Positions 9,004 through 21,557 of a stretch of DNA of 64,000 nt are shown one piece after another (positions within the stretch are counted from its first letter, which is position 1; each line of letters opens with the position of its first letter). Where the stretch lies: positions 1-64,000 of the forward strand of contig NZ_SLZU01000019.1 in NCBI RefSeq assembly GCF_004342065.1, read 5' to 3'. This DNA is from Primorskyibacter sedentarius (GTDB lineage: Bacteria; Pseudomonadota; Alphaproteobacteria; Rhodobacterales; Rhodobacteraceae). The notes beneath the pieces were generated by a model. It did no database searches. It saw only the letters and a list, made by a program, of their open reading frames with translations, and had not been told where the DNA came from. The position numbers and the translations under genes were made by a program.

Positions 9004-9684
9004 TTAATTTTTGGACTTACGGACAGTTGTTGACGCCTCTTTTCGCGGCACACGAATCGCGCCCGCCGAAGCGCCGGACAAAAGCGCATCGCGCAATTCA
9101 ACACAGGCCGCACGAATCGGCGAAATCAGGGGCACCGGGCTGGATGCTGACAAGCGTTCCGCCGCCTCTCCCAGAGGGCCGCCGCCGATGATGACCACCT
9201 CGGCACCGTCCTCGGTGGCGCGCGCCACAGCCCCGGCAAGCGCTGCATCCAACCGCGCGGGATGCGCCATCAAGGCCAGCGGATCATCCTGCGTCAGATA
9301 GCAGCCAAGGTAGCCAGCCACCGGCGTCATCAAGGCATCAATCGGACCGGACAGACTGGGTGTGGTCGTCGCCACGGCAAAGCGTCGCCCCCCCGCTGCC
9401 CGGGCCGAGGCCGCGCCAATCCCGATCACCGGGCAGACCATCCGCGCCGCCAGCTCCGCGCGCCCCGGATCGCCAAAGGCGGACACGATGATCCCCGCTA
9501 CCCGCGGCAATTGCGCCTCTGCCACCTGTCGCCCGGCCGCCGTCAAAGCCGCCTCATCAACAATCATCTGAGGCCCCTTGGGCGCGGTCCATCCGGTGAT
9601 GTCGGGCAGGATCTGGCGCGCAATCTGCAGCATTGCTTCGGTTGTCGCGACATTTGCGTTGGGGTTCATCAAAAGCGGGGTCAT
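9004..9684 (-). CDS. Asp/Glu/hydantoin racemase superfamily protein lacking both catalytic cysteines
   Basis: A 226-residue protein beginning MTPLLMNPNANVATT, the N-terminal signature of hydantoin-racemase-like members. In active hydantoin racemases the two catalytic Cys lie in a CFGDPG motif and in a late GC motif. Here the first motif reads VSAFGDPG and the second reads IIGGGPLG, so both positions carry Ala/Gly. It is therefore unlikely to be a two-base cofactor-independent racemase; a decarboxylase, isomerase or non-catalytic role is open. The ATG overlaps the amidase stop (ATGA), placing it last in the hydantoinase/TRAP operon. Confidence 0.85.
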   Translation of the reverse strand: MTPLLMNPNANVATTEAMLQIARQILPDITGWTAPKGPQMIVDEAALTAAGRQVAEAQLPRVAGIIVSAFGDPGRAELAARMVCPVIGIGAASARAAGGRRFAVATTTPSLSGPIDALMTPVAGYLGCYLTQDDPLALMAHPARLDAALAGAVARATEDGAEVVIIGGGPLGEAAERLSASSPVPLISPIRAACVELRDALLSGASAGAIRVPRKEASTTVRKSKN

Positions 9685-11012
9685 TTCCCCTGCCCCGCGT
9701 CCAACTGGGCGGCAACGCCCAAGAGCCACCCCTCACCGCCGTGATCGACGATCAGTTGCATACCCACTGGCATCTCTCCGGCCTGTGCCGCAGGAAAGGC
9801 CAGCGCTGGCACGCCAGCCGCATTGACCCAGCCTGTATAGATCGCGTGCCCCCGTGGCCCCACATCCTGCCCGTCGATCTGCGCAGGAAAGGCCTGATCC
9901 GCAGGCCAAGGCATCGCTGCCGCCGTCGGCATCAGCACGGCGTCATACCCCCACAGCCCCCGCACAGTCTCGCGCAGGGCAAAGATTCGGGTCAGCGCCT
10001 CATACAGATCCACTGCGCTGGCCCCCGCTCCGGCCCGTGCCATCGCGCGGTATTTCTCGGCGGCACAGTCCAGCACCGCTGGGTCGTTACGTCCCAGATG
10101 CGCCAGTCCGATCTCACCGATGCTGGACCAAACCGCGTTCAGCGGTGCCAGATCAACCGGCAGAGCGCCCACATCAACCTCATGCCCCAGCCCGCGCAAC
10201 TGCGTGACCGTTGCGTCAAAACGGGACCGGATAACCGGATCGCAAGGCGCGTCGCCCAGCAGACCCACCGCCAGAATGCGGCAGGTGCCTGGTGCCGTGG
10301 CCCCCTGCCCTGTCAGAACCCGGTGAAACAGCGCCAGATCACGCGCGGACCGAGTAATTGGCCCGACCACCTCCAGATCCAGCAACACTTGCGGCAGTCC
10401 GCCGCCGCGCGACACCGTACCGATCCCCGGCTTCAGCCCCCAAAGCCCGGTGTACCCCGCCGGACGCCGGATAGAGCCACCGCCATCGGTGGCCAGCCCC
10501 GCCACCGCCATGCCAGAGGCCACCGCCGTAACAACGCCGCCAGAGGATCCTCCGGGCGTCAGCGACGGATCCAAAGGATGGCCCGTGACTCCGAAACGGA
10601 GGTTCCCGGTATAGCCCTCAACCGCGAATTCGGGCGTGTTGCCCTTGCCAAGGATCACCGCACCCGCCGCGCGCAGCGCCGCCACCGGCATCTCATCCTG
10701 CTCGGCCACGCGCCGCGCCAGTTCAACGTTGCCCCAAGCGGCAGGCATCCCGCGCGCAACAAGGTTGTCCTTGACGATGATCGGCACGCCGCTCAATGCG
10801 CCGAGCGAGGCACCAGATCGACGGGCCTGCGACTGGGCCGCCGCCTCTGGCAATGCGGACCCTGACAGGGCGCTGTAGGCGTTCAGTGCCCCATCCTGAC
10901 GGTTAATTTCATCCAGATGCGCGCGCGTTACATCCAGTGGATCAACGCGCCCTTCGGCATAGGCCTGCAACAACGCGGTCGCATCCAAGGTTTTCAGCGA
11001 AAAATCTTTCAT
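9681..11012 (-). CDS. Amidase-signature family hydrolase (443 aa)
   Basis: Second amidase of the window. Start chosen at 11012 (MKDFSLKTLD), which overlaps the DctM stop by four bases; the ORF extends 24 bases further, inside dctM. Catalytic elements are the Lys of VPIIVKDN (about 90), the cis-Ser in TPGGSSGG and the nucleophile in DGGGSIRRP. Cytoplasmic, no signal peptide. It is translationally coupled to a TRAP transporter and the racemase homologue, and about 12 kb of coupled genes lead back to a hydantoinase, so it may cleave the ring-opened carbamoyl or amide product. Sequence alone does not give the substrate. Confidence 0.9.
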   Translation of the reverse strand: MKDFSLKTLDATALLQAYAEGRVDPLDVTRAHLDEINRQDGALNAYSALSGSALPEAAAQSQARRSGASLGALSGVPIIVKDNLVARGMPAAWGNVELARRVAEQDEMPVAALRAAGAVILGKGNTPEFAVEGYTGNLRFGVTGHPLDPSLTPGGSSGGVVTAVASGMAVAGLATDGGGSIRRPAGYTGLWGLKPGIGTVSRGGGLPQVLLDLEVVGPITRSARDLALFHRVLTGQGATAPGTCRILAVGLLGDAPCDPVIRSRFDATVTQLRGLGHEVDVGALPVDLAPLNAVWSSIGEIGLAHLGRNDPAVLDCAAEKYRAMARAGAGASAVDLYEALTRIFALRETVRGLWGYDAVLMPTAAAMPWPADQAFPAQIDGQDVGPRGHAIYTGWVNAAGVPALAFPAAQAGEMPVGMQLIVDHGGEGWLLGVAAQLDAGQGK

Positions 11013-12310
11013 CGGCCCACCGCCTGCGGCAGCCACGTCACCACCTGCGGCCAGAAGATCAGCGCCGAGGTGAACAGCAGCATCAGCCCCGCGTAAGGAA
11101 TAGCCCCCGCCACCACGTCCGAGAATGGCCCGCGATCCCCGCGCACGCCCTGCACTACGTACAGGTTCATGCCCACCGGCGGCGTGATCATCCCTAGTTC
11201 ACACATCAGCACCACGAAGATGCCAAACCAGATCGGGTCCACCCCCGCCTGCACAACGATCGGCACAAAGATCGGGATCGTCAGCACCTGCATCGACAGC
11301 ACGTCCATGAACATGCCAAGGATCAGGTAGAACAGCATCAGCGCGAACAGCAGTTCGACCATGGTCAGTCCCTGCGACGCCACCCAGGACGATATCACCG
11401 CGGTGATCCCGCCCAAGGCCAGCGTCAAGTTCAGGGTAAAGGCCGCGACGATGATCATCAGAATCATCCCCGTCGTTTTGGCCGTCTTGCGGAAACAGAT
11501 GTCGAGAAAGGCCAGCGACAGCTTGCCCTCGGCCGCGACAAACCCCAGCGCCACGACCACAGCCAAAGCGGCACTTTCCGTCGGAGTCGCAATCCCCAGA
11601 TAGATCGAGCCCATGACAATCAGGAACACCACCGCCGCAGGCACCAGATGCCTGAGTGCCGCGATTTTCACGGACCACGGGATCACCACGTCATCGCGCT
11701 TTTCGGTGTGGGTCAGGATGTCCTGCACGGCGATGAAAGCCATGAACAGCATGGTCAGCAGGATCCCCGGCACAACACCCGCGATGAACAACTGCCCCAC
11801 GGACACGCTGGCCAAGGACCCATAAACCAACAGGTTGACCGAAGGCGGAATGAGAATGCCCAAGGTGCCGCCCGCCGCCAATGATCCCAGCGACCGCGAG
11901 GGCCGATAGGCGCGTTCCTCCAGCGCGGGCAGCGCCACGGTGCCCACGGTGGCCGCCGTTGCCACGGAACTGCCGGATGTGGCCGCAAACAGCGCGCAAC
12001 AACCGATGTTGGTGTGCAATAGACCGCCCGGCAGCCGCCCCAGCCACAGCGCCAGCGCGCCATACATCCGGTCCGCCAGACCCGAACGCAGCAGCAGCTC
12101 GCCCAGCAGGATGAACAGCGGGATCGCGGTCAGGACCGGCTCATTCGAGGTGCCCCAGATCACTGGCCCCATGCTTTGCAACAGCACCGGACCATACAGG
12201 ACCATGCCCCCGGCCACGCCCATCATGACCATGACAGAGGCCACCGGCAGCCCCATCAACAACAGGCCCATCATGATCGTAAACCCGATGGCGACGTCAA
12301 AGATGCTCAT
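11009..12310 (-). CDS. dctM: TRAP transporter large permease (DctM)
   Basis: Large membrane subunit, 433 residues, of a tripartite ATP-independent periplasmic transporter, which uses the ion gradient to import organic acids and other carboxylated or amide solutes. It has the usual 12 or so hydrophobic segments and family motifs such as GCCALFAATSGSS and ALEERAYRPSRSLGSLAAGGTLGILIPPS (given here only as the landmark near residues 115-165). One base separates it from dctQ. The start is at 12310. Confidence 0.95.
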   Translation of the reverse strand: MSIFDVAIGFTIMMGLLLMGLPVASVMVMMGVAGGMVLYGPVLLQSMGPVIWGTSNEPVLTAIPLFILLGELLLRSGLADRMYGALALWLGRLPGGLLHTNIGCCALFAATSGSSVATAATVGTVALPALEERAYRPSRSLGSLAAGGTLGILIPPSVNLLVYGSLASVSVGQLFIAGVVPGILLTMLFMAFIAVQDILTHTEKRDDVVIPWSVKIAALRHLVPAAVVFLIVMGSIYLGIATPTESAALAVVVALGFVAAEGKLSLAFLDICFRKTAKTTGMILMIIVAAFTLNLTLALGGITAVISSWVASQGLTMVELLFALMLFYLILGMFMDVLSMQVLTIPIFVPIVVQAGVDPIWFGIFVVLMCELGMITPPVGMNLYVVQGVRGDRGPFSDVVAGAIPYAGLMLLFTSALIFWPQVVTWLPQAVGR

Positions 12311-12311
12311 C

Positions 12312-12866
12312 TCAGCGGCCTTTCATTTGGGTCAACTCTTCGCTCAATTCGTCCTCGGCAGAGGTCGGATTGAACGCCGCGGCTAGCGCCCGGTGCCGTC
12401 CGGTGAAAAACAGCAGGCTCGCCCGCGCCAGCAGCACAAAGGATAGCAGCGCAAAGCCCGCCAGCGCCGCGTACCAGGCCGATTGCGGCCAGATCAGTGG
12501 CGTCCGCCAGGGCGTCGCGGCGGTCGATCCATAGGCCAGCGTGTCAGAGATTACGAACCAGCCGACATAAAGGAAAAACAGCCCCAGTACCGCCAGCGAC
12601 AAGACTGCCAGCCAGTCCACCAGCGCCTGCGCCCAGACCGGCATCCGCGCGTGCAGAACATCGATACGGATATGCGCGCGGTCGATCAGCGCAACGGAAA
12701 AACTCAGCGCCGCGCCGAGGGCCAGCACATAGCCGCCCAGTTCATCCGCCCCCTGCAACGAGGTATTGAACAGCTTGCGCAGCAGCGTTTCTAGCGCGAC
12801 AAAACCGGACAGGAACAAAAGCGACCAACCGAACAATCGGCTGATCCATGTGGCGAGGCGTTCCAT
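12312..12866 (-). CDS. dctQ: TRAP transporter small permease (DctQ)
   Basis: Small membrane subunit of 184 residues with four hydrophobic segments and the family-typical ALVDWLAVLSLAVLGLFF region. It bridges the binding protein and DctM. The C-terminal tail is charged (DELSEELTQMKGR). It lies directly between dctP and dctM, preceded by a stem-loop at 12887-12920. Confidence 0.93.
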   Translation of the reverse strand: MERLATWISRLFGWSLLFLSGFVALETLLRKLFNTSLQGADELGGYVLALGAALSFSVALIDRAHIRIDVLHARMPVWAQALVDWLAVLSLAVLGLFFLYVGWFVISDTLAYGSTAATPWRTPLIWPQSAWYAALAGFALLSFVLLARASLLFFTGRHRALAAAFNPTSAEDELSEELTQMKGR

Positions 12867-12929: not shown

Positions 12930-13958
12930 TTACATGCTGTCCTTGGCCGTCACGGCCTTGGTCCAGGCATCAGAGCAGCCGGGATTGGTAGCATCGCAGA
13001 CCTCGGCCCACGCCGGGAAGGACACGTTCGGCACAGCCGTGCCGACCAGTTCCTTGTCCGCATCGGTGGGTTCGACCAGCACGAGGTCATATTTCGTGCC
13101 TGTCTCGCAGGGTTCGGCGCCGGTGTTGCAGTTCACCGCATCGACGAACAACTCTTCGGAATAACTCCAGATCTTGTCAGTCAGCTTGTCGAACCCGGCC
13201 TGCAGTTTCTCCTGCTCATCGGGGCTCAGCTTGTTCCAGGTGTCGAGGTTGATGCCATAGCCGTTCATCGCCAGTTGGAAGGCGATCGGCAGGGTATAGG
13301 ACGTCACTTCGGGCCAGCCGGCGGAATTGGCCGAGGACGGGCCGGTGATGGCGCAATCCACCACGCCGCGCGCCAGCGATTGCTGAACCTCGGGGAAACC
13401 GATGGGGACCGGCGTTCCGCCGACCAGCGACACAAATTCCGCTAGGTTCTGGTCATAGACCCGCACTTTCAGCCCCTTGAGGTCGGCCAGCGACCCAATC
13501 TCCGGCTCGCAGAACAAGACCTGCGGACCAAAGGGCCAGACGCCCAGCAGTTTGGTGTTGAACCGCTCTTGCAGGCGTGCATCTACAATCGGGGCAAAGG
13601 CCTCGACCGTTTCGCGGCCCGTGGCGTAATCCGGATTCAGTCCCACAAGGTCGAGACCAAGGATCGTCGGCTCATCCCGCGACACCTGGCTCAGGCGCAG
13701 CGACACGATGTCGAACAAGCCGCCCTTGAGGATGCGCAACTGTTCGGTGTCCTTGATGCCGGTCACGTCGACCGGCTGGTAATCGGCGCTGAAGCCGTCC
13801 AGCCCGGTTTCGGCGGCGAAATTCTCAAAGAACGGCTGTTCGACGTTCTTCTGGATCAGGCCGGTGGCGACCGGCTGGCCCATGACGCGGAACGTCTCGG
13901 CCCCGGCAGGAATGGCAAGCGCGGTCAGCGTGGCGGCGCAGGCAAGTGTACGGATCAT
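12930..13958 (-). CDS. dctP: TRAP transporter solute-binding protein (DctP)
   Basis: Periplasmic binding protein, 342 residues. The ATG at 13956-13958 begins MIRTLACAATLTALAIPAGA, a clean signal peptide; the longer ORF upstream lies within the AMDase-like gene. The DctP fold is visible in the LKGLKVRVYDQN strand with the ligand-gating Arg region and the AITGPSS loop. The start overlaps the preceding stop (ATGA). Several cysteines near the C-terminus (VNCNTGAEPC, CDATNPGC) suggest disulfides, as seen in some TRAP proteins. Ligand unknown. Confidence 0.93.
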   Translation of the reverse strand: MIRTLACAATLTALAIPAGAETFRVMGQPVATGLIQKNVEQPFFENFAAETGLDGFSADYQPVDVTGIKDTEQLRILKGGLFDIVSLRLSQVSRDEPTILGLDLVGLNPDYATGRETVEAFAPIVDARLQERFNTKLLGVWPFGPQVLFCEPEIGSLADLKGLKVRVYDQNLAEFVSLVGGTPVPIGFPEVQQSLARGVVDCAITGPSSANSAGWPEVTSYTLPIAFQLAMNGYGINLDTWNKLSPDEQEKLQAGFDKLTDKIWSYSEELFVDAVNCNTGAEPCETGTKYDLVLVEPTDADKELVGTAVPNVSFPAWAEVCDATNPGCSDAWTKAVTAKDSM

Positions 13959-14749
13959 GTGGATGTTCCTTTGGTTTCGGAGAGTGTGAGTGGTGGCAGG
14001 CCAAGGGCGGCAACGGTTTGAAATACGCCCCCCCAATCGGTGACCTGCGCGGGATCAAGCCCGACCCGTGACAGGCAATGGGCCGCCGTGACGGCGACGG
14101 AATCGAGTACCGGGATGCCGGTGGCGTCCTCGATGCGCGCCGCCTCTGGCGCGCCGCGAAAATTGGTGCAGACAACGGCGATGGCGTCGGGCTTTGCCTC
14201 GGCCACGCGTTCGATCATCGCGCCCACCTGTGCGGGCGGATAGGTGGCGAAACTGTAATTTCCCCTGTCGTTCAGCCTATTGGAGCTGACGACCTCGATC
14301 CCCTGCCCGGCATAGTTTGCGATCATCCGGGTTTCGATCTCTTCGACATAGGGCGTCACCACACCCAGCCTTTTGACCCCCATGCCTTTCAGCAGCGCGT
14401 CATAGGCAAGGATGGTCGACGTCGCGGGCACGCCGGTCCGTTCAGTGATCGCCGCACAAAGCGCGCGGTCCTTGTCCAGCCCCAGCCAAGATGCAGACGT
14501 TCCGTTCCAGGCGATCAGGTGCGGGCGCGCCTCGGCCAGCCGCTCGGCGGCCTCAAGGATCGGCTCCAGCGTGAACTGCGCCTGACTGGCATCAGACATG
14601 GAAATCTCGACCACCCGGAAACGCCCGAAATGCGCGCTGGCCGCCTCACCAAAGGGGGCGAACATGGCGCTGGTATAGGGCTCCAACACCGTGTTGGAAC
14701 TGGGCGTCAGCATCCCGACGCGGCGGGGATCGACGGCGGGATACTTCAT
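13955..14749 (-). CDS. Arylmalonate decarboxylase / maleate isomerase-like protein (Asp/Glu racemase superfamily)
   Basis: A 264-residue enzyme beginning MKYPAVDPRRVGMLTPSSNT, the N-terminal signature of maleate cis-trans isomerase, EutA and arylmalonate decarboxylase relatives. At the first catalytic position, where racemases and maleate isomerases have Cys, it has the Gly of NGTSASWLG, as in arylmalonate decarboxylase. At the second position a Cys is kept (VVCTNFRG). A single late Cys is the pattern of decarboxylase-like members rather than true racemases. ATGA-coupled to the hydantoinase upstream and to dctP downstream. EutA-like function is the main alternative, but no ectoine genes are present here. 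Confidence 0.8.
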   Translation of the reverse strand: MKYPAVDPRRVGMLTPSSNTVLEPYTSAMFAPFGEAASAHFGRFRVVEISMSDASQAQFTLEPILEAAERLAEARPHLIAWNGTSASWLGLDKDRALCAAITERTGVPATSTILAYDALLKGMGVKRLGVVTPYVEEIETRMIANYAGQGIEVVSSNRLNDRGNYSFATYPPAQVGAMIERVAEAKPDAIAVVCTNFRGAPEAARIEDATGIPVLDSVAVTAAHCLSRVGLDPAQVTDWGGVFQTVAALGLPPLTLSETKGTST

Positions 14750-16149
14750 GCCGCCACCTTGTCGCGCGCGATATGCCGCCCAATGGCCGCGCCCACGGGC
14801 GCGCCGTTTTCCATAACGGTCTGGCCGCGCAAAAGGGTCCGCACCGGCCAGCCGGTGACCGCGAACCCTTCCCACGGGGTGTAGTCCGACCCGTGATGCA
14901 GGTCGCCTTGGGTGATCGCCTTTGTCAGCGTCGGGTCCCACAGCACGATATCGGCATCCTTGCCCACCATCAGCGCGCCCTTGTTCGTCAGGCCGTAGAT
15001 GCGCGCGTGGTTGGTGGCGGTCAGCGCGGCAAACGCCTCAAGGCTGATGCGCCCCTTGCTGACCCCTTCGGAGAACAAGATCGGCAGGCGCGTTTCGACC
15101 CCCGGAATTCCGTTGGGAATGTTGCGGAAAGAGTCCCGCGCACCGGGCGCGTCTTTGCCCTTTTCGTCGGCAAAGCGGAACGGGCAATGGTCCGAGGAAA
15201 ATACATCGAACGCCCCCTGCTCCAACCCCGCCCAGATCGCCGCCTGCTCATGCGTATCGCGCGGCGGCGGAGAGCATACGCATTTCGCGCCCTCAAAACC
15301 CGCGCGGTCCAGATCGTCCGCCGTCAGCGTGATGTATTGCGGACAGGTCTCGGCGTAGACCTTGACGCCGCGGTCCTTGGCGCGGCGGATTTCCTCCAGC
15401 GCGGCACCGTTCGACACGTGCACCACCATCAGCGGTACACCCGCCACTTCGGCCAGCGTGGTGGCTCGGTGTGTGGCTTCGCGTTCTACCGGCACCGGGC
15501 GAGAGCGGGCATGAAACACCGGCGCGGTGTCCCCTGCCCTTTCCGCCTTGTCGCGCAGGTATTCGATGGCGTCCTCGTTTTCGGCGTGAACCAGCGTCAA
15601 CGCGCCCTGCCCTTTCGCCACATCCATCACTTGCAGAATCTCGGAATCTTTCAGGCGCATCCCTTCGTAGGTCATGAAGACCTTAAAGCTGGTCAGCCCC
15701 TGCGCGATCAGCGCTGGCAGGTCCTGCCCCAGCGTGACGGGGTCGGCGCTCTTGACGATCAGGTGACAGGAGATGTCTGTCAGGCACTGGCCCTCTGCGC
15801 GCGCAAGATAGGCGACAGTTGCCTCGCGCAAGCTTTGATCCTCATCGGGCAGGACAAAGGGCATCACCAGCGTGTTGCCGCCACAGGCCGCAGCACGGGT
15901 GGCGCTGGCGAAATCATCCGCCATCTCGATCCCCGGTCCGGACGGCTGGGCGATATGCACATGACTGTCGATGCCGCCGGGCATAGCGATCAGACCGGTC
16001 GCGTCGATCATCTCATTGCCCGACAAATCGGTGCCCAGCGTCACGATGCGCCCGTCCCGGATACCGATATCGCACTGTGCCGCCCCGGCGGGTGTCACCA
16101 CCCGCGCGCCGGAAATCACCGTATCATGTGTTGAAAGTTGGCCTTGCAT
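14746..16149 (-). CDS. D-hydantoinase / dihydropyrimidinase family cyclic amidohydrolase
   Basis: Zinc amidohydrolase of about 467 residues that opens five- or six-membered cyclic ureides and imides. Metal ligands are visible: DSHVHI (HxH, about 60), the carboxylated Lys in SFKVFMTYEG, His in TLVHAENED and in VVHVSNG, and the late Asp in FSSDHCPF. Start taken at the ATG at 16147-16149; the ORF to 16248 crosses the LysR-side palindrome. It is the promoter-proximal gene of a long minus-strand operon, divergent from a LysR regulator. Allantoinase and dihydroorotase are excluded in part by the strong hydantoinase-type motif spacing; the natural ring substrate is not evident. Confidence 0.9.
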   Translation of the reverse strand: MQGQLSTHDTVISGARVVTPAGAAQCDIGIRDGRIVTLGTDLSGNEMIDATGLIAMPGGIDSHVHIAQPSGPGIEMADDFASATRAAACGGNTLVMPFVLPDEDQSLREATVAYLARAEGQCLTDISCHLIVKSADPVTLGQDLPALIAQGLTSFKVFMTYEGMRLKDSEILQVMDVAKGQGALTLVHAENEDAIEYLRDKAERAGDTAPVFHARSRPVPVEREATHRATTLAEVAGVPLMVVHVSNGAALEEIRRAKDRGVKVYAETCPQYITLTADDLDRAGFEGAKCVCSPPPRDTHEQAAIWAGLEQGAFDVFSSDHCPFRFADEKGKDAPGARDSFRNIPNGIPGVETRLPILFSEGVSKGRISLEAFAALTATNHARIYGLTNKGALMVGKDADIVLWDPTLTKAITQGDLHHGSDYTPWEGFAVTGWPVRTLLRGQTVMENGAPVGAAIGRHIARDKVAA

Positions 16150-16223
16150 ACCCACCGTTCCTGTCGCGTTCGACCAAACGCTAGCGAGGCTTTCGATTGC
16201 CAACCATGACAAAATAGGCAAGG

Positions 16224-16248
16224 TTGCATTCTCAAAATGAGAACGCAA
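16224..16248. promoter_or_regulatory. LysR-type palindromic operator between hydantoinase operon and regulator
   Basis: TTCTCA (16229-16234), a three-base centre and TGAGAA (16238-16243) form a perfect inverted repeat, extended by TTGC (16224-16227) and GCAA (16245-16248). It sits in the 116-base divergent intergenic region, 18 bases before the regulator start, where a LysR protein would both repress itself and control the catabolic operon. Confidence 0.6.
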
Positions 16249-16265
16249 TTCAGGGGCGTATTTGC

Positions 16266-17201
16266 ATGAAATTTCACCTCGTTCCGCGCCAGTTGCTGTA
16301 TCTTGAGGCGGTCGCAGAACACGGATCTATTCAGGCGGCGTCACGCGCGCTGGGAATCGCCGCTTCGGCCATCGACCGGCACATCAAGACGTTGGAAGAG
16401 GCCAATGGCGCACCCCTGTTCGAACGCCTGCCGCGCGGAATGCGACCCACGGCCGCCGGCGAGTCGGTGATTGTCATGGCGCGGCGCTGGCGCGCCGATG
16501 CCGACCGTCTGGAAACCGGCCTGCTGGAAATGCGGGGCAAGGAATACGGGTCGGTCCGGCTGGCGGGCATGGACAGTCTGTGCAACGGTGTGCTGCTGGA
16601 CCTGCACAAGGACCTGCGCGCCAACCAGCCCAACCTGCGCCTCTCGCTGGACATAATGACCCCGACAGATGCCCTGCGCGCGCTGGAAGAAGGCACGGTC
16701 GACGTCGCCATGACCTTTAACGCCCCGCCTATGCGACACCAGCATGTGCTGTGGCAGCGCAAGCTACGGCTGGGTTGCATCGTCGCCTCCAACCACCCAC
16801 TGGCCACGGCTGGAAAGCTGTCGCTTTCGGATGTGGACGGTCACGCACTGGTGTCGCAAAGCGCGCTGATGCCGACGCGGCAATACCTAGACAACCGCCA
16901 CGCGTGGTTCTTTGCCTCTAACCGGCCTGTGCTGACCTCGAATTCTATCCAACTGCTGAAACAGGCGTTGCTTCAGGGTGACGTGGCAATGATCACCTCG
17001 GAACTGGATATGCTGCCTGAATTGATGGACGGCAGGCTGCGGTTCCTGCCGTTGAAAGAGGCCGGGCTGGCCTCGCCCACCATCTCGACGGTGATCGACG
17101 CGCGCCGCCCGCTGTCCCGAGCCGCCCGCGTCGTCGCCGAATATCTTGGCACACAGACAGAGGAGCTGATCAGCGCGTTTGCGGCACCAACTGCGCCGTG
17201 A
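16266..17201 (+). CDS. LysR-family transcriptional regulator
   Basis: A 311-residue regulator. The N-terminal winged helix (LEAVAEHGSIQAASRALGIAASAI, about residues 13-36, here noted only as landmark) is followed by a LysR substrate-binding domain from about 90. The start MKFHLVPRQL at 16266 fits family length; the ORF 42 bases longer would run through the operator. Divergent from the hydantoinase operon, which it most likely controls in response to the transported compound or an intermediate. Its last 32 bases overlap the end of the convergent hydratase gene. Confidence 0.92.
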   Translation: MKFHLVPRQLLYLEAVAEHGSIQAASRALGIAASAIDRHIKTLEEANGAPLFERLPRGMRPTAAGESVIVMARRWRADADRLETGLLEMRGKEYGSVRLAGMDSLCNGVLLDLHKDLRANQPNLRLSLDIMTPTDALRALEEGTVDVAMTFNAPPMRHQHVLWQRKLRLGCIVASNHPLATAGKLSLSDVDGHALVSQSALMPTRQYLDNRHAWFFASNRPVLTSNSIQLLKQALLQGDVAMITSELDMLPELMDGRLRFLPLKEAGLASPTISTVIDARRPLSRAARVVAEYLGTQTEELISAFAAPTAP

Positions 17202-17895
17202 TCTCTCCGAACCCGGCAACCGTAGCCTGAACGGTGCTGCCCGCCTCAAACCATGGCAACCCGCAGAGCGATCCGGTGATGACGTGGTGTCCGACCTTTA
17301 GCCCGCCGCAGTGATCGCCGATCTTGTCGAGAAACAGCTGCAAATTGCCAAGCGCCGAACCGCCGGGCACCTCGGCCGCGCCGTCCAATAGAACCCGCCC
17401 TGCCCCGTTCATGGCCGCCTGCACGCTACCGAAATCAGCGCCATCCCAACCATCCAGCACCGGCCCCAGAACAAGCCCGTCATTCGACTGCATGTCGGCC
17501 AGCTTTTGCGTCGGCTCTAGGTCATCCCCCACAAGACGGCAATCGACCAGTTCCATCACAAGGCGCGGACGAAACACGCTATGCAGCGGCCCGTCGCCCA
17601 GAGGGCGCATCAGTTCAAAGGCAATTTCCAATTCGACGCCAGCCATATCCGGCGAGGGGATCGGCGCCCCGCTGTCAAACACCCGCGCGACAGGGATCGG
17701 CCCCAGCACAGGATTGCCATTCGGCCCCGGGCCCAGCTTGAACCCGGCGACCTCGCCCAGCGTTTCTTGCACCTGCGACTGGATGGCCAGCGCCTCTTGA
17801 TAGGTGGGGATGCCCTCAGGCGGGGCAACAGGTACACCGCTGGCCCGCGCGGTTGTCAGGCTTTTGAAATAGGCGGCAATCAGGTCAGGGCGCAT
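17170..17895 (-). CDS. 2-keto-4-pentenoate hydratase / FAH-family protein
   Basis: A 241-residue member of the MhpD-like branch of the fumarylacetoacetate hydrolase superfamily. Landmarks are GFKLGPG (about 50), the acidic metal-binding VELEIAFE (about 85) and the C-terminal VGHHVITGSLCG segment seen in 2-hydroxypenta-2,4-dienoate hydratases. Such enzymes hydrate or decarboxylate short keto-acids. It converges on and overlaps the LysR gene by 32 bases. The second half of a meta-cleavage pathway is absent, so it probably serves the neighbouring unknown pathway. Confidence 0.85.
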   Translation of the reverse strand: MRPDLIAAYFKSLTTARASGVPVAPPEGIPTYQEALAIQSQVQETLGEVAGFKLGPGPNGNPVLGPIPVARVFDSGAPIPSPDMAGVELEIAFELMRPLGDGPLHSVFRPRLVMELVDCRLVGDDLEPTQKLADMQSNDGLVLGPVLDGWDGADFGSVQAAMNGAGRVLLDGAAEVPGGSALGNLQLFLDKIGDHCGGLKVGHHVITGSLCGLPWFEAGSTVQATVAGFGEITAQLVPQTR

Positions 17896-18358: not shown

Positions 18359-19173
18359 GGGCACCGTCAAGTTGCGGGACATCTCAAAAGCAGGTACGTG
18401 GGCGCATGACCAAACCCAAGCAATCTGGTGCCTTTTCAGGCCACCGTTTTCCTCCTGAAATCATTGGATACGCTGTCGGGGCCTATCATCGATTTCCCAT
18501 GAGTTTGCGCGATGCCGAGGACCTGTTAGCCGCACGCGGTGTTGTGGTCAGCTACGAGACCATCCGCGCTTGGATTGCGAAGTTCGGGTTACAATATGCC
18601 AAGGCGATCCGCCGAAATCGACCCAAAGCGGCGGACAAATGGCACTTGGACGAAATCGTCCTTCCGATAAATGGTAAGAAGTATTGGCTGTGGCGCGCCG
18701 TCGACAGCAAAGGCGATGTACTGGACATCCTCGTACAATCTCGGCGCAATAAACGGGCCGCCATTCGGTTCTTTCGCAAACTATTCAAGGCGTTTGGCGA
18801 GCCACGGGTGATCGTCACCGATAAACTCCGAAGCTATGGCGCCGCCTTGAAGGAGCTTGCTCCGGGAATAGAGCACCGCAGTCACAAGGGCCTTAACAAT
18901 CGATCCGAAGGGTCACATCGCCCCAGACGACGGCGAGAAAAGATTATGGGAAGGTTCAAGTCGCCGAGACAGGCCCAGCGATTTCTTTCCGTTCATGATC
19001 AGGTCCAAACCATCTTCCGTCCGCGCCGCCATACACTTTCAGCCGCTGCCTATCGCCAAACCAGAGCCGATGCCCACTGGATTTGGGACGACATCACGCG
19101 TGAGCTGACGGCTGCCTGAGATCCAGTGCCACGGCTTTCGCCGACAGAAACTCCGATAACTTGACGATGCCCC
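18359..19173 (+). mobile_element. IS6-family insertion sequence, 815 bp
   Basis: Terminal repeats are GGGCACCGTCAAGTT (18359-18373) and, on the other strand, GGGCATCGTCAAGTT (19159-19173), one mismatch in 15. A single transposase fills the element. The flanking octamers (CCATCGTA, ACAGCTAT) do not match, so the copy is not a simple insertion: it marks a deletion or rearrangement joining IS110 DNA to a different transposase remnant. Confidence 0.88.
18406..19119 (+). CDS. IS6-family DDE transposase
   Basis: Intact 237-residue transposase. It has the family N-terminal helix-turn-helix (MSLRDAEDLLAARGVVVSYE) and the DDE triad in WHLDEIV (about 82), IVTDKLRSY (about 138) and NRSEGSH (about 173). 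Length is normal for IS6/IS26-type enzymes, which move by replicative cointegrate formation. It begins 47 bases inside the left end. Confidence 0.93.
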   Translation: MTKPKQSGAFSGHRFPPEIIGYAVGAYHRFPMSLRDAEDLLAARGVVVSYETIRAWIAKFGLQYAKAIRRNRPKAADKWHLDEIVLPINGKKYWLWRAVDSKGDVLDILVQSRRNKRAAIRFFRKLFKAFGEPRVIVTDKLRSYGAALKELAPGIEHRSHKGLNNRSEGSHRPRRRREKIMGRFKSPRQAQRFLSVHDQVQTIFRPRRHTLSAAAYRQTRADAHWIWDDITRELTAA

Positions 19174-20742: not shown

Positions 20743-21557
20743 GGAGATGTCACGTTAATCGGGTAGCGATTGCCTGCTCGCTGTGTGCTACGTAGGTCAC
20801 AGCGATGCAGACACCTTCCATCAGCTATAGGCGGCACGGCTCCCGCCTTCGATCATTGCCCACACGGTCTGGCTGTACGTCCGGTTCAATCTGAGCGTGC
20901 GGGAGGTCGAGGAGATGCTGCTCGAACGTGGCATCGAAGTCTCCTATGAAACGGTTCGGCGCTGGACGGCCAAATTCGAGCCGCAGATCGCGAGGAACCT
21001 GCGGCGGTGCCAGCGCCGCTCCGGCGACATCTGGCATCTTGACGAAGTCGTGGTGACGATTTCGGGAAAGACGTTCTGGCTCTGGCGCGCCGTTTATCAG
21101 CGCGGCGTTGTTCTGGAGGAGATCCTCCAGTCCCAGCGGGACAAACAGGCCGCCAAACGGCTTCTGCGCAAGTTGATGAAGCGCGCGGGGTCTGTTCCCA
21201 AACGTATTATCACGGACATGCTCCGATCGTACGGCGCGGTCAAGCGCGAACTCCTGCTCCAACTGGATCACTTGTCGTATAAGGGGCTCAGCAATCGTGC
21301 CGAGAACAGCCATTTGCCGTTCCGAAAGCGGGAGCGCGTGATGCAGGGTCATCGCTCTCCGGACGGCCTGCAACGCTTCGTGTCCATCCATTCCGCCGTC
21401 CGCAATTATTTCTCCGTTCCAACTCGCCGACGCGCCGCCCTAACCATTCGCTACCACCGGATGGAAGCTCTCTGCGCGTGGAAAGTAGCAGCCAGTATCG
21501 CCTAAGGCCGTCATCTACGGCCTTGACCGCCAACCCTTCGGTTAACGTGACAGCACC
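20743..21557 (+). mobile_element. Second IS6-family element, 815 bp, different from the first
   Basis: Ends are GGAGATGTCACGTTAA (20743-20758) and, inverted, GGTGCTGTCACGTTAA (21542-21557), two mismatches in 16. The length equals that of the element at 18359, but the inverted repeats and transposase differ, so they are separate ISs. Flanking octamers do not match. The right end cuts a DUF2270 gene. Confidence 0.88.
20805..21505 (+). pseudogene. IS6-family transposase with a one-base frameshift near the N-terminus
   Basis: The ATG at 20805 reads MQTPSISYRRHG and then leaves frame; the frame one base back continues LPPSIIAHTVWLY and then the rest of an IS6 transposase to 21505. Restoring one C near 20837 gives YRRHRLPPSIIAH, the family pattern, so a single-base deletion is the likely cause. 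The DDE residues remain (WHLDEVV, IITDMLRSY, NRAENSH). An internal start at 20897 would give a 202-residue protein lacking part of the DNA-binding domain, probably inactive. Confidence 0.85.

Follow-up and report, generated by a model that had tools for sequence, protein, structure and literature searches.

A widespread, hydantoinase-linked clade of the racemase/decarboxylase fold with one apparent catalytic cysteine

Introduction

Arylmalonate decarboxylase (AMDase) is, to our knowledge, the only characterised enzyme in its branch of the racemase/decarboxylase fold that has glycine at the first and cysteine at the second catalytic position (Gly/Cys). According to PMC12576825, a hydrophobic pocket of the enzyme takes up a carboxylate group, whose expulsion gives an enolate. 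A set of 12 criteria for AMDases was drawn up by Maimanakos et al. 2016 (PMC4996985). That paper treats the natural substrate of AMDases as unknown, considers arylmalonate activity highly unlikely for proteins that lack, for instance, the hydrophobic pocket, and reports a test of one protein of this sort.

Other members of the superfamily have cysteine at both positions (Cys/Cys). In maleate cis-trans isomerase (PDB 2xec, 4fq7), residues of a PSSN motif, an Arg, a Tyr and an Asn bind C4 dicarboxylates, and we take the PSSN, Tyr and Asn to be the carboxylate ligands. The title of PDB entry 2xed names a covalent succinyl-cysteine in this enzyme. EutA of ectoine utilisation (TIGR02990) has Cys at the first site and Cys-Thr at the second. 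Hydantoin and allantoin racemases (PDB 3qvj, 5lfd, 2eq5) belong to the same superfamily and are found next to hydantoinases. The allantoin racemase of Pseudomonas fluorescens is annotated as a racemase but has Gly/Cys in its printed sequence. Cendron et al. 2016 are reported to have found the role of the missing cysteine taken over by a Glu three positions further along.

Here we describe a Gly/Cys protein from Primorskyibacter sedentarius, encoded in a 64,000-nucleotide stretch of DNA (contig NZ_SLZU01000019.1; "the window"), and the clade to which it belongs.

Sequences analysed

Homologues of the 264-residue protein, here called the core protein, were taken from four sources. Within the family, 394 genomes were searched and 139 gave a match at E <= 1e-10; 22 copies with at least 36% identity were used (window included). 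Within the class, 14 of 289 genomes gave a match at E <= 1e-20. A single named genome (L003) was added. Among plasmids, 45 records match; these hits include Alpha-, Beta- and Gammaproteobacteria, Arthrobacter and the cyanobacterium Leptolyngbya, and 24 of the records were opened, picked to avoid near-copies. EutA is represented in the tree set by a single sequence above the TIGR02990 cut-off (L104). Gene neighbourhoods of 57 clade loci were compared with those of 27 control loci encoding other Amdase-family proteins (a small third clade described below, AMDase, EutA and EutA-like proteins).

Results

The core gene lies in a minus-strand operon, in the order hydantoinase, core, TRAP DctP, DctQ, DctM, amidase and Asp/Glu-racemase homologue. 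Upstream are a divergent LysR gene and a hydratase-like gene. The features are:

9004..9729, minus strand: homologue of the hydantoin/allantoin racemases in which Ala and Gly replace the two catalytic cysteines (Pfam PF01177, 89 bits; motif columns)
9681..11036, minus strand: amidase-signature hydrolase (Pfam PF01425, 241 bits; no NCBIfam equivalog reached)
11009..12310, minus strand: TRAP large permease DctM (TIGR00786, 315 bits, cut-off 268)
12312..12866, minus strand: TRAP small permease DctQ (Pfam PF04290)
12930..13961, minus strand: TRAP substrate-binding protein DctP (NF037995, 80 bits, cut-off 50; Pfam DctP)
13955..14749, minus strand: core protein, 264 residues, predicted single-cysteine (Gly83/Cys194) member of the AMDase/maleate isomerase branch (Pfam, tree and fold match)
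14153..14176, minus strand: second catalytic motif VVCTNFRG, residues 192-199 (Cys194 codon at 14168-14170)
14480..14506, minus strand: first catalytic motif NGTSASWLG, residues 82-90 (Gly83 codon at 14501-14503)
14746..16158, minus strand: hydantoinase of the "QP" subtype, 470 residues (PRK13404, 682 bits, cut-off 647; loop motif)
16224..17201, plus strand: divergent LysR-type regulator (Pfam HTH_1, LysR_substrate)
17170..17895, minus strand: hydratase-like protein (2-keto-4-pentenoate hydratase/FAH type), operon membership uncertain (similarity to a protein of locus L129)

A first-pass annotation, made from the sequence alone, had placed the core gene in a hydantoinase operon, and this holds: the product of 14746-16158 passes the D-hydantoinase model TIGR02033 (474.8 bits, cut-off 393.25) and its gene overlaps that of the core by 4 bp, an overlap also seen on a Salipiger plasmid. 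All the metal-binding motifs given for 1nfg and 1yny (His-x-His, Lys, His, His and Asp) are present in the hydantoinase. The product of 17170-17895 gave no match in Pfam and NCBIfam searches, but is 39% identical to the L129 protein, which is annotated as a 2-keto-4-pentenoate hydratase.

In Pfam the core protein matches Amdase (64.1 bits), with a second, weak match to Asp_Glu_race (32.6 bits, cut-off 31). The same annotation had read its two motifs as Gly first and Cys second, unlike the Cys/Cys pair of maleate isomerase. Translation and alignment bear this out: Gly83 aligns with Gly74 of Bordetella AMDase and with the first cysteine of Nocardia maleate isomerase, and Cys194 with AMDase Cys188 and the second cysteine of the isomerase. 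Across the clade the first site is Gly in 57/58 rows and the second Cys in 57/58, so that the feature is real and well conserved.

In a tree of 108 rows, the 58 clade rows lie behind a 99% branch; 57 are Gly/Cys and one is Val/Asn. The exception (7989-8732 of L161, on Ensifer adhaerens plasmid pC) adjoins dihydroxy-acid dehydratase and tricarboxylate-transporter genes. In a more careful tree of 51 rows, from which the two site columns were omitted, the 25 clade rows form one side of a 100/100 branch. The clade is thus a long-branched group of its own, apart from EutA, maleate isomerase and true AMDases, and its sequences place the core protein in a widespread branch of the racemase/decarboxylase fold that has one of the two usual catalytic cysteines. 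Literature searches, in a library without most subscription journals, turned up no description of this clade.

Gly/Cys itself is found in three separate clades of the trees: that of the core, the AMDases, and a small third clade (L078, L079 and L095), while the EutA-like rows and maleate isomerase are Cys/Cys. The third clade has the motifs FGGTSASF and SCTNFR, is about 30% identical to the core protein, and stands apart from both it and the AMDases. Forcing the core clade and the AMDases together is modestly rejected (AU p 0.037, in a test chosen after the tree was seen). At least two changes to or from Gly/Cys are required by the careful tree; the root is not fixed, and repeated gain is therefore indistinguishable from an ancestral Gly with losses. 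It is worth adding that L067 carries two core-family genes in tandem (9562-10302 and 10303-11043, plus strand), whose products share 51% and 36% identity with the core protein of the window; in the tree the second sits on a long branch.

An AlphaFold model built from three sequences (pLDDT 77.4, pTM 0.80) resembles maleate isomerase, AMDase and an uncharacterised protein of Rhodococcus (4ix1) to much the same degree, with Z of 24-26, whereas Asp, hydantoin and allantoin racemases and OpaE give Z of 14-16. The fold is thus tied between AMDase and maleate isomerase, and that of the hydantoin and allantoin racemases, at Z 14.1-15.6, is more distant.

The active site was compared with that of AMDase, which has the same fold but belongs to a different clade (EC 4.1.1.76; PDB 3dg9/3ip8, 2vlb; the AMDase of L084 is about 24% identical to the core). 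In 33 aligned members 23 columns are invariant, including N19, H40, R43, Q58, W81, G83, T84, W88, Y134, C194, T195, N196 and D216. The Thr-Ser-Tyr residues of AMDase (T75, S76 and Y126, criteria 2 and 3) correspond to oxyanion-type residues Thr84 (56/58 rows), Ser85 (53/58) and Tyr134 (58/58), and Gly74 and Cys188 (criterion 10) to G83 and C194. Criteria 5-9 concern the hydrophobic pocket, of which L40, V43 and M159 become V46, I49 and F167, which are still hydrophobic or similar. Elsewhere the two differ. AMDase P14-P15 and G189 (criteria 1 and 4) are P16-S17 and T195 in all 58 clade rows; Y48 becomes Q56, in a gappy region; V156 becomes N164, with Asn in 52/58 rows; and an Arg stands at the G37 position in 58/58. 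Motif LMGTSLSF agrees with WNGTSASW at 4 of 8 positions (criterion 11, partial agreement) and ILLSCGGL with IAVVCTNF at only 2 of 8 (criterion 12). Of the criteria of PMC4996985, the core protein departs from numbers 1, 4, 7, 8 and 12 and agrees in part with number 11. At least 5 of the 12 are thus missed, with Asn in the place of V156, and the arylmalonate decarboxylase model NF052327 scores 57.5 bits, far below its cut-off of 225. By the published criteria and this score the core is therefore not a true AMDase, and that label would be wrong.

Of these changes, P15 to Ser, G189 to Thr, V156 to Asn and G37 to Arg are ones that the clade has in common with maleate isomerase or EutA. Maleate isomerase shares PSSN, Arg43, Tyr134 and Asn164 with the core, whose N19, Y134 and N164 fall at its PSSN, Tyr and Asn positions, and among solved structures it is the best match to the clade profile (90 bits, against 81 for AMDase).

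In 26/57 clade loci a hydantoinase gene is found no more than 8.5 kb from the core gene, and in 18 of the clade loci it adjoins the core (centres within 1.3 kb). The corresponding count at the control loci is 0/27 (Fisher p 6e-6), where some clade loci are close kin of one another, and contig ends cut four loci on the clade side (L050, L060, L066, L075) and four among the controls (L139, L141, L144, L147). Three of the 26 hydantoinases are themselves distant homologues, at 31-33% identity (L056, L133, L164), and one is truncated (L048). The link between clade and hydantoinase is real. In L048 the hydantoinase next to the core (10368-11075, minus strand) has only 235 residues, from the C-terminal part, and the core is intact.

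In the other 31/57 clade loci there is no hydantoinase within 8.5 kb, and some further clade loci have a different amidohydrolase, of TRZ/ATZ type, as the neighbour. The TRAP DctM query found a match in 19/57 and that for the amidase in 10/57, so that neither is a constant part of the clade loci. A deep subclade (e.g. L059-L066) is accompanied by dehydrogenase genes instead of a hydantoinase, and the substrate may therefore differ among members.

The AMDases have other neighbours. Of 15 AMDase or AMDase-like loci, six have an IlvD/reductase setting, six a mandelate-racemase-family gene and three neither; a hydantoinase is found at only one, L179. True AMDases at L179, L209-L212 and L216 sit with genes of the IlvD-type dehydratase and tartronate-semialdehyde-reductase types, which is possibly a clue to the natural substrate of AMDase. 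At L179 the hydantoinase cohort is present and the core is missing; a true AMDase (294 bits against a cut-off of 225) is encoded there, its centre about 9.1 kb from that of the hydantoinase. The idea that AMDase takes the place of the core at this locus was considered and dropped as evidence, the AMDase lying within its own TRAP-IlvD-reductase arrangement.

The hydantoinases linked to the core are of a particular kind. Their first substrate loop reads H-x-H-x-x-Q-P, and most of them also have P-N-G-[IV]-P-G, where most core-less relatives have Q-E and A-N-G-M-P-G. Among 69 hydantoinases above cut-off in the 394 genomes, a core gene is found within 10 kb for 8/31 of the QP type and 0/38 of the others (p 0.0009); these tallies were compiled by hand from several searches, and L242, counted as non-QP for its QE motif, has the PNGIPG of the QP clade and would change them to 8/32 and 0/37. 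In the QP clade of the hydantoinase tree the count is 22/25, a figure inflated because those loci were sampled via the core. The idea that QP hydantoinases always pair with the core was rejected on the count of 8/31, which makes the core one partner of this hydantoinase and not its only one. Many core-less QP hydantoinases lie near ABC-transporter and aminotransferase-like genes (identities judged by eye). Draft contigs may hide some links: in G360 a core-less QP hydantoinase, 71% identical to that of the window, is on a 3-kb contig, and the core on one of 10.9 kb.

The enzymes that usually accompany the sister subtype of the QP hydantoinase, a carbamoylase and a two-Cys hydantoin racemase, were then counted. 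Twenty core-less hydantoinase loci have a CN-hydrolase carbamoylase in 13 cases and a hydantoin racemase in 15, all 15 racemases being Cys/Cys. At the same thresholds, neither a CN-hydrolase carbamoylase nor a hydantoin racemase was found beside the hydantoinase in any of the 26 core-plus-hydantoinase loci. L055 is a counter-example, with a two-Cys racemase homologue (from a motif scan) more than 8.5 kb from the hydantoinase. A gene of the M20 carbamoylase family lies within 10 kb of the core in 1/48 genomes or records (G231; counted by hand). With the usual carbamoylase and two-Cys racemase missing, these operons probably do not rely on their customary enzymes to decarbamoylate the ring-opened product.

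A Cys-less homologue of the hydantoin/allantoin racemases is present in 17/57 clade loci, 15 of them among the 26 with a hydantoinase. Its two cysteine sites are Ala (Ser in L052) and Gly, and its nearest solved relatives are allantoin racemases. Besides the gene in the window it was seen in 16 further clade loci, e.g. L124 (5757-6500) and L157 (10152-10904).

Some neighbours recall purine breakdown. UraD is matched near the core in 3/57 loci, above the curated cut-off in L046 and L055 and above that of Pfam in these and L129. At these loci at least, the core is thus no simple stand-in for UraD, the OHCU decarboxylase, a role that had been considered for it and was rejected. Similarity to HIUase is found in L055, L068 and L129; in L068 it is the C-terminal HIUase/transthyretin domain of a 532-residue protein (10452-12050, minus strand) which adjoins the core and has no Pfam match in its N-terminal part. 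Other clade loci have PuuE-like proteins below cut-off and a xanthine-dehydrogenase-like subunit. Queries for UraD, HIUase and PuuE-like proteins found no match at any of the 27 control loci. Taken together, these neighbours point to cyclic ureides, with no single compound named.

Possible functions

We suggest, at rather less than even confidence, that the core is an enolate enzyme with a single cysteine, acting on a cyclic ureide or on its ring-opened acid, with decarboxylation as the first reading. That it is cofactor-free and works in series with the specialised hydantoinase is put forward equally tentatively. The TRAP system would import an acidic cyclic ureide, and the hydantoinase would open the ring, unless the core acts on it first. 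The core would then hold a carbonyl or carboxylate in the GTS-Tyr oxyanion site, and loss of CO2 would give an enolate, protonated on one face by Cys194, Gly83 leaving the other face free. Where a locus has one, the amidase would release urea or ammonia, a last step that cannot be general given that the amidase query matched only 10/57 loci. A fitting substrate, at a guess, would be the ureidomalonate R-CH(COOH)-CO-NH-CO-NH2 from a 5-substituted barbiturate-like ring.

The Gly/Cys pair and GTS-Tyr site fit an enolate protonated from one side. Decarboxylation is supported by Gly/Cys with T84, S85 and Y134 as in AMDase, by the hydrophobic V46, I49 and F167, by the hydantoinase link (26/57 against 0/27), by the carbamoylase counts (0/26 against 13/20) and by the fold tie between AMDase and maleate isomerase. 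Against it, Asn164, S17, T195 and the conserved Arg could stabilise a carboxylate instead of expelling it. The low score of the AMDase model and the 31/57 clade loci that have no hydantoinase nearby also weigh against it. The first-pass annotation had read Gly/Cys as pointing to malonate decarboxylation. As a specific pointer this is not supported: the pair occurs in three separate clades and, outside the branch, in an enzyme annotated as a racemase, and the Asn that mostly replaces V156 of the CO2-expelling pocket weakens the pointer further. Since the Pseudomonas racemase is also Gly/Cys, the pair alone does not demonstrate decarboxylation. It is possible, on these residues and neighbours, that the core is a decarboxylase.

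That same racemase is the precedent for another reading, in which the core racemises or epimerises the cyclic ureide or the ring-opened N-carbamoyl acid, with Cys194 on one face and a base other than cysteine on the other. In core-less loci the two-Cys hydantoin racemase (15/20) lies about 1.1 kb from the hydantoinase, centre to centre, and the core has the same spacing in 18 clade loci. Opposite Cys194 there is no Cys, and the third position after Gly83 is occupied by Ala, Gly or Ser in 58/58 rows and never by an acidic residue, so the Pseudomonas-type Glu has no counterpart; His40 and Asp216, invariant in 33/33 members, could be the second acid/base. With its sequence and fold nearer AMDase and maleate isomerase, and the near-invariant Gly left unexplained, we consider a racemase unlikely, though it is the strongest of the alternatives. 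The core might instead be a lyase that takes urea or amide off a ring-opened ureido acid (e.g. ureidosuccinate to fumarate and urea), with Cys194 as base. A carbamoylase would then not be needed, in keeping with the lack of a CN-hydrolase carbamoylase in all 26 loci, and PSSN, Arg43, Tyr134 and Asn164, whose counterparts bind C4 dicarboxylates in maleate isomerase, also speak for it. We know of no enzyme of this fold that eliminates urea or amide from ureido acids, and regard the lyase as improbable.

Cis-trans isomerisation of a maleate-like product would agree with the profile match and the shared PSSN, Arg, Tyr and Asn, but requires a first cysteine that is Gly in 57/58 rows, the modified cysteine of the isomerase presumably being that one; the core was rejected as maleate isomerase for this reason, and the reading is very improbable. 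EutA is the top-scoring NCBIfam model for the core, yet its 68.6 bits are far below the cut-off of 318, the EutA-like rows are Cys/Cys and lie across the 100/100 branch, and none of the gene names in the 18 annotated plasmid stretches refers to ectoine (6 further stretches are unannotated). The clustering with EutA that the annotation had named as grounds against its proposal is thus absent, and we give EutA almost no weight.

On this sequence evidence the core may be a cofactor-free decarboxylase of a new kind, or else a racemase of an unusual one. A bolder proposal, which we regard as doubtful, is that the racemase fold contains, apart from AMDase, another family of decarboxylases that need no cofactor, and that this is the natural partner of the QP hydantoinase. 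With the Cys-less homologue, and in some loci the amidase, it would form an undescribed route for acidic cyclic ureides that bypasses carbamoylase. A natural Gly/Cys clade of this size, next to an enzyme partner that recurs, is a tractable way to learn the cellular role of a single-cysteine site, and with the missing carbamoylase and the Cys-less homologue it makes a good experimental target. It could supply new scaffolds for stereoselective decarboxylation or deracemisation. An annotation of "Asp/Glu racemase" beside a hydantoinase can hide proteins incapable of the classical two-cysteine mechanism.

Finally, beyond the hydratase-like gene the window contains two plus-strand open reading frames, at 18406-19119 and 20897-21505, that by eye have the look of IS6-type transposases.
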